The position numbers and the translations under genes were made by a program. A stretch of 64,000 bases of DNA from assembly GCA_035279405.1 (NCBI GenBank), contig DATEHU010000017.1, forward strand, positions 62,001 to 126,000, in the 5' to 3' direction. Source of the DNA: Gammaproteobacteria bacterium. Lineage in GTDB: Bacteria > Pseudomonadota > Gammaproteobacteria > Natronospirales > REEB76. Below, piece after piece: positions 5,524-43,776 of the stretch; the first letter of the stretch is position 1; every line of letters begins with the position of its first letter. The notes under the pieces were generated by a model that did not search any database, was not told the DNA's origin, and was given only the letters and a program-made list of their open reading frames with translations.

Positions 5524-7832
5524 GTGCTTTCCCGCCCGGTGGGCGGCAGAGACAGGGGTGCACTCAGATAGCTTGCCAGTATGCCGATGAGCGTCGCCAG
5601 ACCGAAGGCATGCAGCGCGGGAATGCGGCTCACGGCGAGCAGGCCGAAGGAAAACAGCATGGTGATCGCCGAGAGCGTCACGGCAAGTGCCGGCGAGCGC
5701 TGACGCGTGCCGCCTTCGCGCAGGAACACGCTGTAATCGCGCCCCAGACCCAGAATCAAAATCAACGCCACCACCACGAAAATGTTGAGCGGCTCACGCA
5801 GCCAGCCGAGCGCGCCCAGGGTGATACCGAGCGCGAGCAGCGGCGGAAACAACATGCGCAGCGCTTCGCGCCGGCCATATCTCCAGAGCAGCAGCGCGAA
5901 GATCACCAGATATCCGATCACCACCAGCCAGGTGGCGCGCACGCGGATGCGGTGAAAAGTTTCAGTTACGCGTGCCAGCGGCTGCACGAACTCGGTGCCG
6001 GGCGTGGACAATGCGGCTTGCTCCAGGGTCGCGGGATTCAGCTGGCCGTGACCGGTGACGGTCGCGAGCAGTGCTACGCCGGTGGACGTCGGAATGACCA
6101 GCTGCTTGAGATCCGGCGCGGCACTGAAAAGTTGCGCGGCGTCGAGAGGCCGGCGCGCTGCGTGCTGCCATTGCGCCTCGAGATGCGCGGTGAGTGCCGC
6201 CGGCAGGCCGAGACTTTTGAACGCGGTCTGCAACGCAGCCGGCGATGCGAGCACGCGGCTCCAGGCGGCGAGACTTGCCTGCTGCTGCGCATTGGACGGC
6301 AGAAAGCGCGACAGGCTAAGCGGCAGCGCCGACGGCACGCGCGCACCGAGCGTCACGAACAGGGCCTGCTCACGCGCGAGCGCCTGCTCGAGATCGCTGC
6401 CGGCAATCAGGAAAAATCCCGGCGGCGGCAACTGGCCGAGCGTAGTGCGGATCTCGGCATCGGTGTGCAGCAGCTTGGGTGGCAGGTGTTGCAGTTCGCG
6501 CACATCGTCGCTGGTCTGCAACCGCAGCCAGCCGGGAATGCAAAGCAGCAGGGCGAGCGCAGGCAACACGTAACGCCAGCGCGAGGGACGGCAGCCCGCC
6601 GCGATGAATTGCTGTGGCCAGCGCACGGCCGCATGTGCGGCCACGCGCGGGTTGCGCGTCAGCGTGAGCGGAAAAATGAGCGCCACCACCAGTCCGGCTT
6701 CGAGCAAACCCGCCACGGAAAACACCGCAATCTGCGTCAGGGCCGGAAAACCCGCCAGCAGCAGGAAGGCAAATGCCACCACTCCGGTGAGCAGGCCCAT
6801 GAGCAGGCCCGGCCGCACGCGGCGCCATACCGCCGGCGGCGCGCTTTCGCCGAACCAGTATTCCGCGAAATACAGGAACGCATAGTCAATGGCAATTCCC
6901 AGCAGCGTGGTGCCGAACACCAGGGTGAGAATCTGGATGGAGCCAAACCAGACAATTACCGCGGCGCTGGCCGCGAGCACGCTGGCCGCAAGCTGCAGCG
7001 CGGCGAGCAGGTGCGGCGCGAGGCTGCGGAACACGAAGGCAATGAGCAGCATGATGAGCACGGCGGAAGCCACGCTCAGCCACAGGGTTTCGCGTTGCGC
7101 TTCGCGACGCGCGGCTTGCGCGAACAGCGGTGCGCCCGTGGCCAGAAACTCGCAGTCGTCGCAGACTTTGCGCGCCGCGTTGTGCGCCGCATCCACGGCC
7201 TGCACTGCGAGTGCCGCGCCGGCTTGCGAGAAACCCGAAGTGCTCACCTGTACGCGCAGCAGGTAATCGCGCCGTCCATTGCGCAGCGCCGTGAGCAGCG
7301 GCCCATCGGGCAGGAATGCGGGGTAAGGCCGCGGCAACCGGCTGAGAAATGCGGCGAGATAACCGCCGGGGTCCGTATCGAAACTGCTGGTCAGGCCGGC
7401 GGGGCTCGCGAGCGACACGGCGACGTCCGTGGTGAGTGCCTGCGCGCCGCCGCGGGTGAGACGTGCGGTCTGGGCGGCATCAAGCATGGCAAAGTGATGC
7501 GCCTGATAGAGCGCGAGCAGTTGCTGCAGCGTCTGGCCGGTGTTTTCGGCATGCAGGCCGGCATTGAGGAGCGCCGTGTGGGCGGCGAGCGCCGCCGCGC
7601 GGGTCGCGGGCGTGTCCGCGCCGCTCACCAGGATCAGCAATTCGTTTATGAAGGCATCGCGGCTGCGCTCGTTGGCGACGCGCAGGGCGCCGGATTCCTG
7701 CTGCGCCGGCAAGGCAGCCAGGATATCGGTGTTGATCGGCTGGTGCACGTCGAGGCGCAGCCACGCGAATGCGCACAGCACAGCGAGTGACGCGAGCCAG
7801 AGCGTGCAGCGCGCGACGCTGGCGAAGCGCAT
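5520..7832 (-). CDS. MMPL/RND-family exporter of the aryl-polyene cluster (ApeM-like)
   Basis: A large inner-membrane protein (770 residues) with two repeats of one N-terminal helix, a periplasmic domain of roughly 200 residues, and a bundle of five to six transmembrane helices. The second bundle has GLGRDYSVFLREG, the acidic/Arg segment typical of MMPL-like exporters in APE clusters. It probably moves the aryl-polyene lipid across the inner membrane, working with the LolA-like and DUF3261 proteins encoded on either side. The start at 7832 (MRFASVARCTLWLASL) gives a normal signal-anchor; a GTG six bases upstream overlaps the previous stop and is an alternative. Confidence 0.9.
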   Translation of the reverse strand: MRFASVARCTLWLASLAVLCAFAWLRLDVHQPINTDILAALPAQQESGALRVANERSRDAFINELLILVSGADTPATRAAALAAHTALLNAGLHAENTGQTLQQLLALYQAHHFAMLDAAQTARLTRGGAQALTTDVAVSLASPAGLTSSFDTDPGGYLAAFLSRLPRPYPAFLPDGPLLTALRNGRRDYLLRVQVSTSGFSQAGAALAVQAVDAAHNAARKVCDDCEFLATGAPLFAQAARREAQRETLWLSVASAVLIMLLIAFVFRSLAPHLLAALQLAASVLAASAAVIVWFGSIQILTLVFGTTLLGIAIDYAFLYFAEYWFGESAPPAVWRRVRPGLLMGLLTGVVAFAFLLLAGFPALTQIAVFSVAGLLEAGLVVALIFPLTLTRNPRVAAHAAVRWPQQFIAAGCRPSRWRYVLPALALLLCIPGWLRLQTSDDVRELQHLPPKLLHTDAEIRTTLGQLPPPGFFLIAGSDLEQALAREQALFVTLGARVPSALPLSLSRFLPSNAQQQASLAAWSRVLASPAALQTAFKSLGLPAALTAHLEAQWQHAARRPLDAAQLFSAAPDLKQLVIPTSTGVALLATVTGHGQLNPATLEQAALSTPGTEFVQPLARVTETFHRIRVRATWLVVIGYLVIFALLLWRYGRREALRMLFPPLLALGITLGALGWLREPLNIFVVVALILILGLGRDYSVFLREGGTRQRSPALAVTLSAITMLFSFGLLAVSRIPALHAFGLATLIGILASYLSAPLSLPPTGREST

Positions 7833-8826: not shown

Positions 8827-10383
8827 CTACCCGTACAGCGTCCAGCGGCGCTCACTGATGGCGGCGCAAAGTTGGCGCAGTTCCGTCTCCAGCGGACGGT
8901 CTTCCTCGACGTAGGCGCACACCGTGAGCACGTCGTCGAGCATCGCGAGCATCCCGGCCGGCATGTGGCGCGGCGGACGATTGCCGCGACGCCGGCGGAT
9001 TTCCATGGCCTGGGCCGCCGCCGCGAGACACGCCGCTGCCACCTGTTCGACCAGCGTGAGCACGCGCAGCGCATCGCGCGCCGCGATCGTGCCCATGCTC
9101 ACCTTGTCCTGGTTGTGGCATTCGGTGGAGCGCGAGAACACGCTCGCCGGCATGCTGAGTTTCAGCGCTTCCGCGGTCCAGGCGGAGACCGCGATCTGCA
9201 CCGCCTTGAAGCCGTGGTTGAGGCTGGCGCGTGCTTCGCTGGCGCCAGACAGGTTGCTGGGCAGGCCGTTGTTGAAGCGCGTGTCCACGAGCAGCGCCAG
9301 CTGGCGATCCAGCAGGTCCGCGATGTTGGCCACGGTGTTTTTCAGGCTGTCGGCCACGAACGCGATGTGGCCGCCGTAAAAATGTCCGCCGTGGTAAATC
9401 TCGCCGCTCTCCGGATCCACGATGGGATTGTCATTGGCGCTGTTGAGTTCATTCTCGATGTCGCGCTGCATCCAGCCGAGTGCGTCCGCCAGCACTCCGA
9501 TCACGTGTGGCGCGCAGCGGATGGAATAGCGCTCCTGGATGCGCAGCGGACTGTCCTGGCTGGTGGCGCCCATGTCGGCAAAAATCCAGGCGGCGATTTG
9601 TTGCTGGCCCGCGTGCGGCTTGACTGCGAACAGGCCGGGCGCGAAATGTTTGGGGTCGCTGCCGAGCGCAATGCCCACCATGGCGGTGATGCGCGTGGCC
9701 AGGCGCAGGAGATATTCGGCGCGTTCCCAGGCGAGGCAGGCGAGCGCGGTCATGACCGCGGTGCCGTTCATGAGCGCCAGACCTTCCTTGGGCATGAGCG
9801 TGAGTGGCGCGAGGTGCGCGGCATGCAGCGCCTGCGCGGCGGTGCACACCTTACCCTGATAGCGGACTTCGCGCTCGCCGATCATGGCCGCGGCCACGTA
9901 GGACAGCGGCGTCAGGTCGCCGCTCGCGCCCACCGAACCTTCCTCCGGAATCAGCGGTGCAATGCGCTGCTGGATCATGGATGCCAGTAGGGTTAACACG
10001 TCGAGGCGCACGCCGGAGAAACCCATGGCGAGCGAGTTGAGGCGCGTCGCCATGATGGCCACCGTGGTCGGCTCGTCGAAATGTGCGCCCAGGCCGCAGC
10101 CGTGGTAACGCACCAGATGCACGGGCAATTGCGGCAACACCGGCGCCGGTATCGGCACCGTGCAGGAATCCCCGTAACCGGTGGTCACGCCGTAAACCTG
10201 GGTGCCGGCCGCAATGCTGTCCGCCAGCACCTTGGCGCCGCGCCGGATGCGCTGTTGGAATGCCGGGCTCGCATCCAGCGCCAGGGGCATGCCGCGGGCC
10301 ACGGCGCAGACCTCGCGCAGCGCGAGACGCCGGTCGCCGACCGTTACGGGAGTTTCAAGCGGATAGTTTTCCAGGTTGCGCAT
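8827..10383 (-). CDS. HAL/PAL/TAL-family aromatic amino-acid ammonia-lyase of the aryl-polyene cluster
   Basis: A 518-residue MIO-dependent ammonia-lyase. The MIO-forming Ala-Ser-Gly is at 153-155 (GSVGASGDLTPLSY), the catalytic Tyr is Y64 in YGVTTGYG, and FNSANDN-type NSANDNPIVDP is present. The selectivity pair, which is Ser-His in histidine lyases, His-Leu in Rhodobacter TAL and Phe-Leu in plant PAL, reads Tyr-His here (Y93-H94 in LVRYHGCGLG). No other histidine-degradation gene is nearby; lyases of this type are a recurrent member of gammaproteobacterial APE clusters and could supply a cinnamate or 4-coumarate starter for ApeH. The substrate cannot be read from sequence. The start at 10383 is chosen because earlier residues are the apeJ shadow; it overlaps the apeJ end by 29 bases. 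Confidence 0.88.
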   Translation of the reverse strand: MRNLENYPLETPVTVGDRRLALREVCAVARGMPLALDASPAFQQRIRRGAKVLADSIAAGTQVYGVTTGYGDSCTVPIPAPVLPQLPVHLVRYHGCGLGAHFDEPTTVAIMATRLNSLAMGFSGVRLDVLTLLASMIQQRIAPLIPEEGSVGASGDLTPLSYVAAAMIGEREVRYQGKVCTAAQALHAAHLAPLTLMPKEGLALMNGTAVMTALACLAWERAEYLLRLATRITAMVGIALGSDPKHFAPGLFAVKPHAGQQQIAAWIFADMGATSQDSPLRIQERYSIRCAPHVIGVLADALGWMQRDIENELNSANDNPIVDPESGEIYHGGHFYGGHIAFVADSLKNTVANIADLLDRQLALLVDTRFNNGLPSNLSGASEARASLNHGFKAVQIAVSAWTAEALKLSMPASVFSRSTECHNQDKVSMGTIAARDALRVLTLVEQVAAACLAAAAQAMEIRRRRGNRPPRHMPAGMLAMLDDVLTVCAYVEEDRPLETELRQLCAAISERRWTLYG

Positions 10384-12067
10384 GGGTCTTGGTTGGCTTG
10401 CCGTGGCTGGGGGCTGGGGTAGGCACGCTTTCGCCGCCGGCCCAGAAATCAAAAAAGTTGTACCACTGTAGCGGAAATCGGCCGGCATAATCGGCGAGGC
10501 GCGCGGCATAACGGCCAGCCCAGGCTTGAGCCGCGGCCTCGCGCCCCCGGCGCGGCAGCCGGATGCGCTCGGCAAAGGGCTCGAAGTACACGCGATACCC
10601 CGGCCCTTGTCGCAGGCAAAACATCAGGTACACCGGACATTCCAGCACGTGCGCCAGCACATAGGGACCGAGCGCAAAGCGTGCCGGCCGGCCGAGGAAC
10701 GGCGCACGGACCACCGGGCTGTCGCTGGTGACCGGTGTGCGGTCGCCGACGATCACTACCACTTCACCGGCGGCGATTTTTTCCCGCAGCAGCAGCGCGG
10801 TTTCCGGACCGATGCGGTCCACTTCCAGCAGGCGCGCGCCGTAGGCATCGCTGGTCTCGGTCAGGACGGCGCCGAGTTTGCGCGCGTTGCCGGAATACAC
10901 CAGCGCGTTGATGCGCAGGCCGGCCACGCGCGTGCCGAGCGCGCGCGCCGCTTCGATGTTGCCAAGATGCGCACTCAACAGCAGCATGCCGCGCCCCGGA
11001 GCAAGTGCGGCCTGCAGCTGCGGCAGCCCGGGAAAATCCACCTGCACGCGCGCGGGATTCCGCCAGGCGGCGACCTTGTCGAGGATGCACTCGGAAAAAT
11101 TCAGGAAATGGTGGATGCTCTGCGCGCGCGATGCGGGAGCGCCCGCGGCGGTAAGGAATGCATGCGACGCACGGCGCGCGTGTGCGTGCGTGAGGAAGAA
11201 ATACGCGGTCACCGGATACAGGACCGCGAGCGTCAGCGGCCGGCCGAGCACGCGGTCCAGAAATCCGAGGAAACGCACGCCGCCCAGACTGCCGCGTTCG
11301 CCGATGCGCGCCCAGTGGCGCGCGCGCCGCCGCGCACGGTTGCGCCGCCACAGCGTGGGGCTGCGCGCCAGCATGCCGAGAAACAGGCGCAGGTGCAGCC
11401 AGGCCATGCGCGCGTTGTCGCGCAGCATGCGGAAATGCGAGACGCCGTCCGCGGGGTAGTGCACGCGCGTGGGCAGGAACAGGCTTTCGGTGCCCGCCCA
11501 GTACAGGCGCGTCATGATGTCGGTGTCGAAATCCATGCGCGCGCCGATGCGCACGCGCGCCGCCAGCGCCAGGCTCGGGGCGACCGGGTACACACGCAGG
11601 CCGCACATCGAGTCGCGCAGCGTGAACGACAACGTATGCAGCCACACGAGGGCATGCGTGAGGTAGCGGCCGTAGAAGCGCACCGCCGGCACGCTCGCGT
11701 CGTAACGCGGCAATCCCGAGACCAGATGCTGCGGATGACGCTCTGCGAGCACCAGCAGTGCGGGGATGTCGGCCAGCTCATGCTGGCCGTCGGCATCCAC
11801 GTACAGCGCATGCGTAAAGCCGCATTCACCGGCGTGCGCCATGCCGGTCATGGCCGCGATACCCTTGCCGCGGTTGCGCGCCAATGTCAGGCACTCGACT
11901 TGCGGATCGTCGGCGCTAACGTGCGCGAGCGCCTGTTTGGTGAGTGCATCGCTGCCGTCGTCCACCAGGATTACCGGCAAACCCTGGGCGCGCAGGGCCG
12001 CGACGATGGCGCCGAGACTCGCATGGTGATTGAACACCGGGATGACCGCGCAGGCATTGAAATTCAT
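10355..12067 (-). CDS. apeJ: Glycosyltransferase family 2 / LpxL-like acyltransferase fusion (ApeJ-type)
   Basis: A 570-residue two-domain protein. The first roughly 240 residues are a GT-A fold family 2 glycosyltransferase: AVIPVFNH, ILVDDGSD and the DXD-type YVDADGQHE. The remainder resembles LpxL/HtrB lysophospholipid acyltransferases: LLLSAHLGNIEAAR with the H-x4-E motif, VVIVGDRTP, and a typical ending FPLQWYNFFDFW. The fusion is characteristic of APE clusters and is thought to build or modify the lipid/sugar anchor of the polyene. The ATG at 12067 overlaps the apeI stop by four bases. A basic, proline-rich tail of about 25 residues follows the acyltransferase domain. Confidence 0.9.
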   Translation of the reverse strand: MNFNACAVIPVFNHHASLGAIVAALRAQGLPVILVDDGSDALTKQALAHVSADDPQVECLTLARNRGKGIAAMTGMAHAGECGFTHALYVDADGQHELADIPALLVLAERHPQHLVSGLPRYDASVPAVRFYGRYLTHALVWLHTLSFTLRDSMCGLRVYPVAPSLALAARVRIGARMDFDTDIMTRLYWAGTESLFLPTRVHYPADGVSHFRMLRDNARMAWLHLRLFLGMLARSPTLWRRNRARRRARHWARIGERGSLGGVRFLGFLDRVLGRPLTLAVLYPVTAYFFLTHAHARRASHAFLTAAGAPASRAQSIHHFLNFSECILDKVAAWRNPARVQVDFPGLPQLQAALAPGRGMLLLSAHLGNIEAARALGTRVAGLRINALVYSGNARKLGAVLTETSDAYGARLLEVDRIGPETALLLREKIAAGEVVVIVGDRTPVTSDSPVVRAPFLGRPARFALGPYVLAHVLECPVYLMFCLRQGPGYRVYFEPFAERIRLPRRGREAAAQAWAGRYAARLADYAGRFPLQWYNFFDFWAGGESVPTPAPSHGKPTKTHAQPGKLSA

Positions 12068-12414
12068 GCGCGCCTCCGGAAATCCAGCACACCGCTCGAG
12101 TAGCTGTGCTGGGCGTCGCGGTACTCGTAACGCAGGCGTGCGCCATCCGCCGCGCGCGTCAGGCGCAGAGTAAGGTGCGTGCCGGGCAGAATCGGGCGCT
12201 TGAATTTCACCTGTTCGAGGCCGGGCTGCGTCGGCGTGCCGGCGTGCAACTCTGCGGCGTAGTGCACGGCCCAGGCGATCTGCGCCACGCCCGGCAGGAT
12301 GGGACGCGCGGGGAAATGGCCCTCGAACCAGGGACTGTTCTCCGCCACCAGGATCTCGAGTTCGCTGCCGCCGGGGTGGGTGCGTTTGGCGAGGACCGTG
12401 GGCAGAACGTTCAT
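12064..12414 (-). CDS. apeI: FabZ/FabA-like dehydratase, ApeI-type
   Basis: A 116-residue hotdog-fold protein. It contains PWFEGHFPARPILPGVAQIAW, the FabZ-like segment with catalytic His in GHFP. Paired with ApeP in known systems, it dehydrates 3-hydroxyacyl-ACP to the trans-enoyl product of the polyene. It is shorter than FabZ (about 150 residues) but normal for ApeI. The ATG at 12414 overlaps the apeH stop by four bases, and its own stop overlaps apeJ. Confidence 0.87.
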   Translation of the reverse strand: MNVLPTVLAKRTHPGGSELEILVAENSPWFEGHFPARPILPGVAQIAWAVHYAAELHAGTPTQPGLEQVKFKRPILPGTHLTLRLTRAADGARLRYEYRDAQHSYSSGVLDFRRRA

Positions 12415-42080: not shown

Positions 42081-42109
42081 GGCGTAAATACGCCGACGTG
42101 TGGTATAAA
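42081..42109 (+). promoter_or_regulatory. Extended -10 promoter with an overlapping inverted repeat for the small-peptide unit
   Basis: TGGTATAAA at 42101-42109 is a good extended -10 (TGn plus TATAAA). Immediately upstream, 42081-42094 is a perfect inverted repeat GGCGTA-AA-TACGCC that could be a regulator site in the spacer. No -35 is clear. If used, transcription starts near 42116, giving a leader of about 125 bases with a small palindrome (42123-42134) before the peptide ATG. The larger intergenic region 41811-42243 is otherwise gene-free and lower in GC than its surroundings. Confidence 0.55.
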
Positions 42110-42243
42110 ACCCCCGATGTACGGAGCTAGCTCCTACAGTGCGCTGCGTGGTAAGGGCCACACCGTGTGTATATCAACCTCTCACAGGAGGCCCGGATCA
42201 TTCGGCGATAGGTCAAATCATTGGTAATTCGGAGGTTTCACCA

Positions 42244-42408
42244 ATGAACGTCAATCTTTTCGCTGCAAAAAAGACTCAGGGTGTCACATTCAGGATCGGC
42301 AAGCCGGTCCTTCATCGGGATCTGGGAATCCAGAAACTGGTCGGCCCCGCCAAGGACAAGCTCATAATGAAAGTTAATTCTTGTAACAATGCCTTGGCTA
42401 CAGCTTGA
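42244..42408 (+). CDS. Small 54-residue peptide, candidate precursor peptide
   Basis: A short frame with an excellent ribosome-binding site (GGAGG, 8 bases before the ATG). The peptide starts MNVNLFAAKKTQGVTFRIG, has a basic middle with seven Lys in total, and ends KVNSCNNALATA with one Cys. There is no signal peptide or membrane helix. It precedes an acyltransferase with a PqqD/RRE-like domain by 150 bases containing a stable hairpin, the arrangement of peptide-modification operons. It has no Glu/Tyr pair, so it is not PqqA. Homology and function are unknown. The longer reading frame starting at 42139 has no start signal near its beginning. Confidence 0.6.
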   Translation: MNVNLFAAKKTQGVTFRIGKPVLHRDLGIQKLVGPAKDKLIMKVNSCNNALATA

Positions 42409-42472
42409 GCTTCAGCTCTGCAATTACAAAGGAAATAGGCGACTGATCAGTGCCGTTTAATCAGGGACTTAT

Positions 42473-42513
42473 GGGCCCGTCCGGATTTACAATCTGCAAG
42501 TCCGGGCGGGCCC
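42473..42513 (+). terminator. Strong hairpin between the peptide and acyltransferase genes
   Basis: Two 16-base arms (42473-42488 and 42498-42513) pair fully with two G-T wobbles and a nine-base loop. No T-run follows, so it may be an attenuator or an mRNA-stability element rather than a full terminator. The position after a short highly translated gene and before a single enzyme gene would give more peptide mRNA than enzyme mRNA. Confidence 0.65.
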
Positions 42514-42558
42514 GATTCTTGGAATGCAGTATTACTCCCGTCTGACAAAAGGACGTTC

Positions 42559-43776
42559 ATGCGAAACGCGCAGGAATATCTCGATGCGCTTGCGCGCCTG
42601 CCGCGCCCTTACCGTCTTATGCCGCCGGCGCGGGACGGTGCCGGTCAGCACGAAGCCGACACGGTAGAGGCCAACACCCGCGAATTCGCCTCCGCCAATC
42701 TGCACCATCTGCTGCCGGATATCCCGATGGCGGCACATCCACAAATCATTGATGAGATCCTGTTGCACCGGCTCATGGCGGAACTCGATGAGGACGGGTT
42801 ATTTCTATTGGGTAATACTCATATTGAAGACCCGCATTCGGTGCTAGCTGCAGCCAAGAACACGCCGGTCATATTCTGCACGTTCCACTTTGGGTCGTAT
42901 CGGCTGATTAATATGCTTCTGATGAGTCGAAGCTTTAACTATTTGCTCCCCGTGGAAGACCATATTTACACCGCTCAGAAAGCCATATTTATGGATCATA
43001 CCGAGGGATACAAGAAGCACTTCCATAGTACGCCCCAATTTGTGGTGGTAAATGCCGAGGAGCCTACGGCTGCGCTGACGATGGCGCGTAAGGCCAGAGC
43101 AGGCTGGTCATTGCTGGCTTACATAGACGGCAATACCGGCGTGCAGGGCGCGGCCAGGAAAGACGCCAAGATGCTCAAGGTTCCGCTACTCGGCCGACCG
43201 ATGTATGCGCGCAGGGGGATTGCCTTTCTGTCGCATTTCCTCAAACTGCCGATCGTGCCGGTCTTCTGCGAATTCACGGGCCCGGTGGAGAGACGTCTGA
43301 TTTTTCATGATCCGATCCAGCCGGGCGGAGCTGATACCGAGCGGGATGCGTATTGCCAATCCGCAACCGAACGGCTGTACGCGTTGCTCGGCACGTATCT
43401 CAAAAAGTCTCCTTCGCAATGGCTGGGCTGGCTGGACATGCAAATGTATCTTGATTTGGATGCTACTACTTCGCTCGAAACCATGGAAAACATGGGCACG
43501 GCCATGGATTCCGAAGGCGATGAAGTCGTGGCGCAGCGGCTGGTGTTCAATCATGAGCGCTTCGGATTTATCGTGCGCGAAGGCGAGCGCGTGCTGCTCG
43601 ATAAGTTTAACTACGAATTTCTGTCGGTGCCCGAAAGTGTATTCGCGGTGCTGGACGCGTGCCGTGAACCGGTGGCGGTAACCCGCCACATGCCGGAAGA
43701 ACACAGGGAAACCATCGAACAATTGTTATCGCTCAACTTGCTGTCGCCGGTCACGGACACGGTGCGCGGCACTTAG
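42559..43776 (+). CDS. LpxL-like acyltransferase fused to a PqqD/RRE-like C-terminal domain
   Basis: A 405-residue protein. Residues ~95-300 resemble the LpxL/HtrB lysophospholipid acyltransferase fold: CTFHFGSYRLINMLL, LLAYIDGNTG, VPLLGRPMYARRGIAFLSHFLKLPIVPVFCEF, and SPSQWLGW. The motif H-x4-(D/E) is H110-FGSY-R115, so the acidic residue is missing. Residues ~328-400 form three predicted strands (FGFIV, RVLLDK, YEFLSV) followed by helices (PESVFAVLDAC and EEHRETIEQLLSLNLLSPV), the pattern of PqqD-like peptide-binding domains. Codon use in the first third is AT-richer than neighbours, suggesting transfer. The ATG has AAGGA nine bases upstream. The TAG stop lies in the end of the dispersed repeat (copy 2). 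The assignment of the C-terminal domain is inference. Confidence 0.72.
   Translation: MRNAQEYLDALARLPRPYRLMPPARDGAGQHEADTVEANTREFASANLHHLLPDIPMAAHPQIIDEILLHRLMAELDEDGLFLLGNTHIEDPHSVLAAAKNTPVIFCTFHFGSYRLINMLLMSRSFNYLLPVEDHIYTAQKAIFMDHTEGYKKHFHSTPQFVVVNAEEPTAALTMARKARAGWSLLAYIDGNTGVQGAARKDAKMLKVPLLGRPMYARRGIAFLSHFLKLPIVPVFCEFTGPVERRLIFHDPIQPGGADTERDAYCQSATERLYALLGTYLKKSPSQWLGWLDMQMYLDLDATTSLETMENMGTAMDSEGDEVVAQRLVFNHERFGFIVREGERVLLDKFNYEFLSVPESVFAVLDACREPVAVTRHMPEEHRETIEQLLSLNLLSPVTDTVRGT

Follow-up and report, generated by a model that had tools for sequence, protein, structure and literature searches.

The 64,000-nt stretch of DNA that we analysed (hereafter the window) comes from a 2.46-Mb genome assembled into 59 contigs. 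On its forward strand lie two adjacent genes: a gene for a 54-aa putative precursor peptide (42244–42408; MNVNLFAAKKTQGVTFRIGKPVLHRDLGIQKLVGPAKDKLIMKVNSCNNALATA) and a gene for a 405-aa acyltransferase of the LpxL/PatA (LPLAT) fold with a C-terminal domain resembling RiPP recognition elements (RREs; 42559–43776). The peptide gene runs from an ATG at 42244 to a stop codon at 42406–42408, with a GGAGG ribosome-binding site 8 nt upstream of the ATG; Cys47 is the only cysteine of the peptide and is conserved in 5/5 genus members. Between the two genes lies a 43-nt hairpin (42472–42514, forward strand; −34 kcal/mol, z −6.8 against shuffles), which may act as an attenuator or terminator. No T-run follows the hairpin in the window, while in two sister genomes (G007 and G010) a hairpin at the equivalent place is followed by 7–8 T, as is typical of an intrinsic terminator; the relatives' hairpins share the position of the window's hairpin and differ in sequence. 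GC content is lower at the pair (0.479 for the peptide gene and 0.559 for the enzyme gene) than in the window as a whole (0.631), which is compatible with horizontal acquisition without being proof of it. A reading made earlier from sequence alone, without database searches, had claimed this layout (i.e. a small peptide with its ribosome-binding site, a hairpin and an acyltransferase) and the lower GC relative to the neighbouring DNA; both claims held.

The region upstream of the peptide gene also appears to be organized. A −10-like promoter element, TATAAA (42104–42109, forward strand), is inferred from the sequence; TATAAA or TATAAC is retained at the equivalent place in sister genomes, and a sigma-70 scan reported no site at 42104–42109. 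It is followed by a structured 5′ untranslated region (42110–42243, forward strand) that has almost the same sequence in the sister genome G004. Within 42219–42246, TTGGT/ACCAA arms form a hairpin whose loop contains the GGAGG ribosome-binding site, and a ribosome-binding site in a hairpin loop at the end of the untranslated leader is found in 5/5 genus members. The layout of the leader as a whole (42110–42246) is alike in three further species beyond the window and G004. No Rfam family matched the leader, and no known RNA families were found over the locus. Among the ORFs surrounding the pair there is no adjoining protease or transporter gene, and no LanB, LanC or LanM. Elsewhere in the window (10400–12200, minus strand; locus L002), one frame encodes both an LPLAT domain and a glycosyltransferase of the family-2 type; such a fusion is known from aryl polyene clusters.

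The peptide–enzyme pair is also present in four other species of the genus (i.e. G004, G007, G010 and G005). The enzyme is 92% identical to that of the window in G004, where the contig ends inside the enzyme gene, and 54–57% identical in G007, G010 and G005. In all four sister species an ORF of 47–53 aa with a strong ribosome-binding site lies upstream of the enzyme gene, with a hairpin in between (4/4), and the single conserved Cys sits 8 or 9 residues before the C-terminus in 5/5 genus members. Because the peptide frame is unbroken in the four other species and its dN/dS values are 0.24, 0.11, 0.19 and 0.06 in four pairwise comparisons, the 54-aa ORF is a real gene under purifying selection rather than a chance ORF, and the pair is a conserved and selected unit. 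A GMC oxidoreductase gene occurs near the pair in 5/5 genomes, yet on differing sides. Two other genomes of the genus that lack the pair (G001 and G006) contain a remote homologue that adjoins a radical SAM gene and, in G001, is flanked on its other side by a gene for an M50-type protease.

We then examined the enzyme. Its Pfam match, to Lip_A_acyltrans, is marginal, the NCBIfam equivalog for LpxL (lipid A lauroyl acyltransferase) scores 21.5 bits, far below the cut-off of 350, and no GNAT match was obtained in Pfam or NCBIfam. An AlphaFold2 model built from 26 homologues (mean pLDDT 87.6, pTM 0.87) predicts that the main domain (residues 30–314; 42646–43500, forward strand) has an acyltransferase (LPLAT) fold, and this domain matches LpxM (5kn7, E 5e-11) and PatA (5f2z, E 1e-10). 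Its signature comprises H110-x-G112-x-Y114, D190-G191, W288 and W291; together with P231, these residues are invariant in the 26 aligned members. In an alignment with E. coli LpxL, H110 corresponds to H132, while R115, at the end of the catalytic-motif segment H110-F-G-S-Y-R115 (42886–42903, forward strand), stands at the position of the catalytic E137. No member has the complete H-x4-(D/E) motif: Arg, Asn, Gln, Trp, Ser, Leu or Pro takes the place of the acid. The catalytic base His is therefore kept and its usual acid partner is absent, as had been claimed for Arg115. With the acid missing from every member, the enzyme may instead catalyse some different reaction, or none. We infer that a His without an acid is easier to reconcile with a thiol acceptor than with a hydroxyl acceptor.

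The C-terminal domain consists of three strands (327–330, 335–340 and 343–348) and two helices (359–367 and 380–391) in the model. Residues 322–405 were also modelled alone (pLDDT 84, pTM 0.70). A Foldseek search with this segment is headed by TbiB1, PbtF, TigE, SuiB, ThcOx and TruD, with a modest best E of 0.07. VIA-align returns TigE (Z 7.4), TbtB (6.9), MccB (6.5), TbiB1 (6.2), MadB (6.1) and PqqD (4.5), and also lists human NO66 and MINA53, which have a look-alike C-terminal winged helix. A Z below 8 is weak by itself. The domain is nevertheless read as an RRE because the leading VIA-align rows are mostly RiPP enzymes, in which the alignment falls on the peptide-binding domain or close to it. 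By sequence, there was no match in the PDB and none to the Pfam or NCBIfam RRE models; a single comparison of the domain profile with a profile of the domains at the N-termini of radical SAM, M50 and arginase proteins from the neighbourhoods gives weak support (P 3.6e-4, probability 37%). Residues 327–397 (43537–43749, forward strand) thus have the fold of an RRE as predicted by the model, an assignment that rests on the fold matches and the weak profile comparison, without binding data.

We also compared the neighbourhoods of relatives of the enzyme, in which several genes were named by Pfam or NCBIfam match and the FabZ, PPTase and ACP genes by eye. The simplest arrangement is found in 12 loci of the order Cytophagales (L047 and L049–L059), in which a peptide gene lies directly upstream of the enzyme gene (12/12 of one clade), mostly at a distance of 11–27 nt. 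The Cytophagales peptide is Lys-rich, 50–66 aa long (typically ∼54) and of the form MKKQFAIK...ESANLLKFLKP..CC..., and it occurs in two or three tandem copies in L054, L057 and L058. Homology between the precursors of the two phyla is not claimed: the likeness of KDANKMKF to ESANLLKF plus Cys is no better than that of shuffled sequences (hhalign P 0.7). In the same 12 loci (12/12), the divergent neighbour of the peptide, ∼0.2–0.6 kb upstream, encodes a homologue of one LytTR-domain protein of ∼340 aa with apparent membrane segments, which could be a regulator or sensor of the peptide.

Other relatives reside in recognized RiPP clusters. Locus L061 contains two FlmA-family precursors with DDVLF ends (40 bits, cut-off 30), an FlmR/OhkR peptide arginase (405 bits, NCBIfam cut-off 350), an FlmE/OhkG radical SAM enzyme (718, NCBIfam cut-off 500) and a JmjC protein. 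In locus L064, two precursors and an M50 protease accompany grasp-with-spasm ATP-grasp and SPASM genes, both of which score slightly under the NCBIfam cut-offs. L046, L080 and L081 combine a radical SAM enzyme and an M50 protease with one to three Cys-rich precursors that carry the leader motif LEERLEM/LEERLEL, and L078, from a gammaproteobacterium, contains two precursors of this type, an M50 protease and an arginase/agmatinase-like protein. M50 proteases are thus found in L046, L064, L078, L080 and L081. In L014, L045 and L048 a LanB dehydratase is accompanied by a ketosynthase, an AMP-ligase, a PPTase and a FabZ-like dehydratase; L045 additionally has an ACP and a match to a class I lanthipeptide leader. 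No recognized precursor was found nearby in L060, L062, L063 and L079. One enzyme type recurs in at least five RiPP contexts.

Several features of these neighbourhoods deserve mention in their own right. Precursors with LEERLEM, LEQRLEM or LEERLEL before a Cys-rich core (L046:6691–6858; L080:6724–7322; L081:2309–2452; L064 reverse complement, 5924–6076 and 6188–6337; L078 reverse complement, 9856–9984 and 10033–10161) occur in two phyla beside M50 proteases, mostly together with radical SAM or grasp-with-spasm genes, and the five representatives scanned gave no NCBIfam model match. The arginase/agmatinase-family protein of L078 (8802–10061, minus strand) has an RRE-like N-terminal extension, unlike the known UPF0489 peptide arginases. 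L014, L045 and L048, where the LanB genes are interspersed among the ketosynthase, dehydratase, AMP-ligase, PPTase and (in L045) ACP genes, look like class I lanthipeptide clusters with a dedicated fatty acyl group.

Relatives of the enzyme were sought in samples of genomes. The class sample yielded the window's own genome only (1/369), the phylum sample 2/398 genomes (its own and G1373) and the Bacteroidota sample 6/395 genomes with a relative; in the Bacteroidota order that contains L014 (a Cyclobacteriaceae MAG), 26 of the 291 genomes have a relative bearing the C-terminal domain. Searches of 72,556 plasmids, of 50,697 phages and of the viral contigs gave no relative, so that an origin from such mobile elements is unsupported. 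Long branches in the enzyme tree make its deep order unsafe, and we claim neither a direction nor an age of transfer.

These results bear on the remainder of the sequence-only reading, which took the locus for a RiPP operon. It had described the C-terminal domain as three strands plus helices, which the model secondary structure bears out. It had also named three outcomes that would refute it: (i) no structural match of this domain to an RRE, (ii) no conservation of the small ORF next to homologues, or (iii) a peptide frame broken in relatives. None of these occurred: the structural match was found by fold and is weak by profile, a small ORF stands beside the homologues in the window's own genus (with a different peptide family in Bacteroidota), and the frame is whole in relatives. 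The RiPP-operon reading is supported, and homologues also lie within recognized RiPP clusters. Its guess that an acyl group is transferred remains inferred and unproven.

Possible acceptors can be narrowed from the precursors themselves. Cys is present in the C-terminal half of 23/23 non-lanthipeptide precursors and never in the N-terminal half, while the two lanthipeptide candidates have no Cys. Lys is missing from the C-terminal half of four precursors (L061, L064, L078 and L081), and Ser or Thr is present in 25/25, as composition alone predicts. Because Cys is found in the C-terminal half of all 23 and Lys is absent there in four, Cys is preferred; for the window we infer that Cys47 is the first choice, whether as a thioester or in a form changed further. 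The alternatives are Ser/Thr, Lys and an N-terminus that has been freed. Lys or the N-terminus, the acceptors guessed earlier, thus remain possible, yet the distribution of Lys and Cys in the other precursors points elsewhere. An amine acceptor is conceivable in the arginase-bearing clusters. The donor is likely to be acyl-ACP, both because LpxL enzymes use it and because one group of relatives comes with genes of its own for acyl-ACP synthesis.

Taken together, the locus is likely a minimal two-gene RiPP pathway in which the enzyme acylates a precursor held by its RRE, although the acyl transfer, its donor and its acceptor are inferred. In this view, the 54-aa peptide is the precursor and would be made in excess over the enzyme, because a hairpin precedes the enzyme gene. 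The RRE-like domain would bind the precursor (binding being inferred), and the LpxL/PatA-like domain would move a fatty acyl group, probably from acyl-ACP, onto the C-terminal part of the peptide, with the invariant H110 acting as base in the absence of its usual Glu partner. Any cleavage or export is likewise only inferred, and no acylated product is known. The pair and the RRE-like domain are well supported, the pair by its recurrence in five genomes of the genus despite differing flanking arrangements.

Three other explanations could be considered. The enzyme may belong to a RiPP pathway without acylating anything, being a repurposed LPLAT that forms another bond (e.g. peptide-to-carrier, or an internal ester or thioester) or a silent chaperone that presents the peptide. 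Replacement of the H-x4-(D/E) acid in all members speaks for this possibility, as does the lack of dedicated acyl-supply genes in the minimal loci. However, H110, G112, Y114 and D190-G191 are invariant in the 26 aligned members, which suggests that catalysis is retained, and some relatives have a dedicated ketosynthase, ligase, PPTase and ACP; we thus regard it as unlikely. Less likely still is that the peptide serves as a carrier or scaffold, on whose Cys an acyl or lipid intermediate is held and passed on, so that the product is a small lipid. Cys is the sole notable side chain in the C-terminal half of the 23/23 non-lanthipeptide precursors (and never lies in the N-terminal half), and no transporter or protease gene adjoins the pair, both of which would fit a carrier. 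By contrast, most relatives accompany peptide-modifying enzymes (radical SAM, arginase and grasp-with-spasm), which fits a peptide product.

An ordinary lipid or LPS acyltransferase preceded by a short regulatory leader ORF, with no functional pairing between the two, is the least probable of the three and is already disfavoured by the data. The Pfam match is indeed to Lip_A_acyltrans and a hairpin separates the two ORFs, but selection acts on the amino-acid sequence of the peptide, the peptide is present in tandem copies in Bacteroidota, and the enzyme has an RRE domain and relatives that adjoin RiPP precursors. Acylation of an RRE-held precursor is therefore the reading that we prefer. A bolder version of it is that RRE-fused LPLATs constitute a general and undescribed RiPP lipidation module, shared by class I lanthipeptide, grasp-with-spasm, peptide-arginase and radical SAM/M50 clusters, together with a stand-alone two-gene class (in Cytophagales and in this gammaproteobacterial genus) in which a conserved Cys of the core is acylated although the usual catalytic acid is missing. 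On balance we lean slightly against this extension.

Whether a peptide antibiotic or signal is active, and whether it is targeted to the membrane, often depends on its lipidation. In the literature that can be searched, lipids are added to ribosomal peptides by GNAT enzymes, by prenyltransferases or through the lipoprotein pathway. If our reading is true, a second and unrelated acyltransferase fold, which brings its own peptide-binding domain, would offer a new way of placing fatty acids on gene-encoded peptides, and a number of orphan clusters from two phyla would become readable. A RiPP pathway testable by a single co-expression could hardly be smaller than the two-gene form. In the open-access literature searched (subscription journals and supplements were outside its scope), no RiPP pathway with an LpxL-like enzyme came up.

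The nearest known systems are the GNAT-lipidated RiPPs, i.e. selidamides, nostolysamides, goadvionins, lipoavitides and microvionin (PMC13060382). As in the window system, selidamides and nostolysamides (kamptornamide and phaeornamide; NpuN) have a dedicated acyltransferase encoded beside the precursor, and theirs adds a fatty acyl group to a RiPP (PMC13060382). Their enzymes, however, are GNATs that act on lanthipeptides and related leader families, whereas the window enzyme, the sole maturase of its locus, joins an LpxL/PatA fold to a C-terminal RRE. The relatives in L061 and L078 are accompanied by an arginase-type enzyme, which would be in keeping with ornithine acylation (cf. selidamides). 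Lipolanthines, goadvionins and lipoavitides are class III lanthipeptides lipidated at the N-terminus by GNATs. They are alike in bearing a fatty acid on a ribosomal peptide and in having acyl-supply genes in some clusters, as in L014, L045 and L048, but they have no LPLAT with an RRE, and the window has no lanthipeptide machinery. Accordingly, the ORFs around the pair do not fulfil the lanthionine synthetase criterion of lanthipeptides, while LanB is present in L014, L045 and L048.

Outside the lipidated lanthipeptides, the flm/ohk peptide-arginase RiPPs with DD(I/V)LF precursors are represented by L061, where two DDVLF precursors, an arginase and a radical SAM enzyme lie beside a relative of the window enzyme; an acyltransferase is unmentioned in the main text that describes this orphan family (PMC12703449; its supplementary gene tables were outside our scope). 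A Chryseobacterium RiPP is lipidated via the lipoprotein pathway of the cell (PMC12636315, per its title), and is thus a lipidated ribosomal peptide in Bacteroidota, but one without a dedicated RRE–LPLAT enzyme. LpxL/LpxM and PatA resemble the window enzyme in catalytic-domain fold, in the catalytic His and in the D-x-x-x-G loop, but their acyl acceptors are lipid A precursors or mannosyl lipids, they retain the H-x4-(D/E) acid and they have no RRE. In brief, although the window system fails the GNAT enzyme criterion of selidamides by its LPLAT fold, and the motif and score criteria of LpxL, it resembles the lipidated RiPPs.
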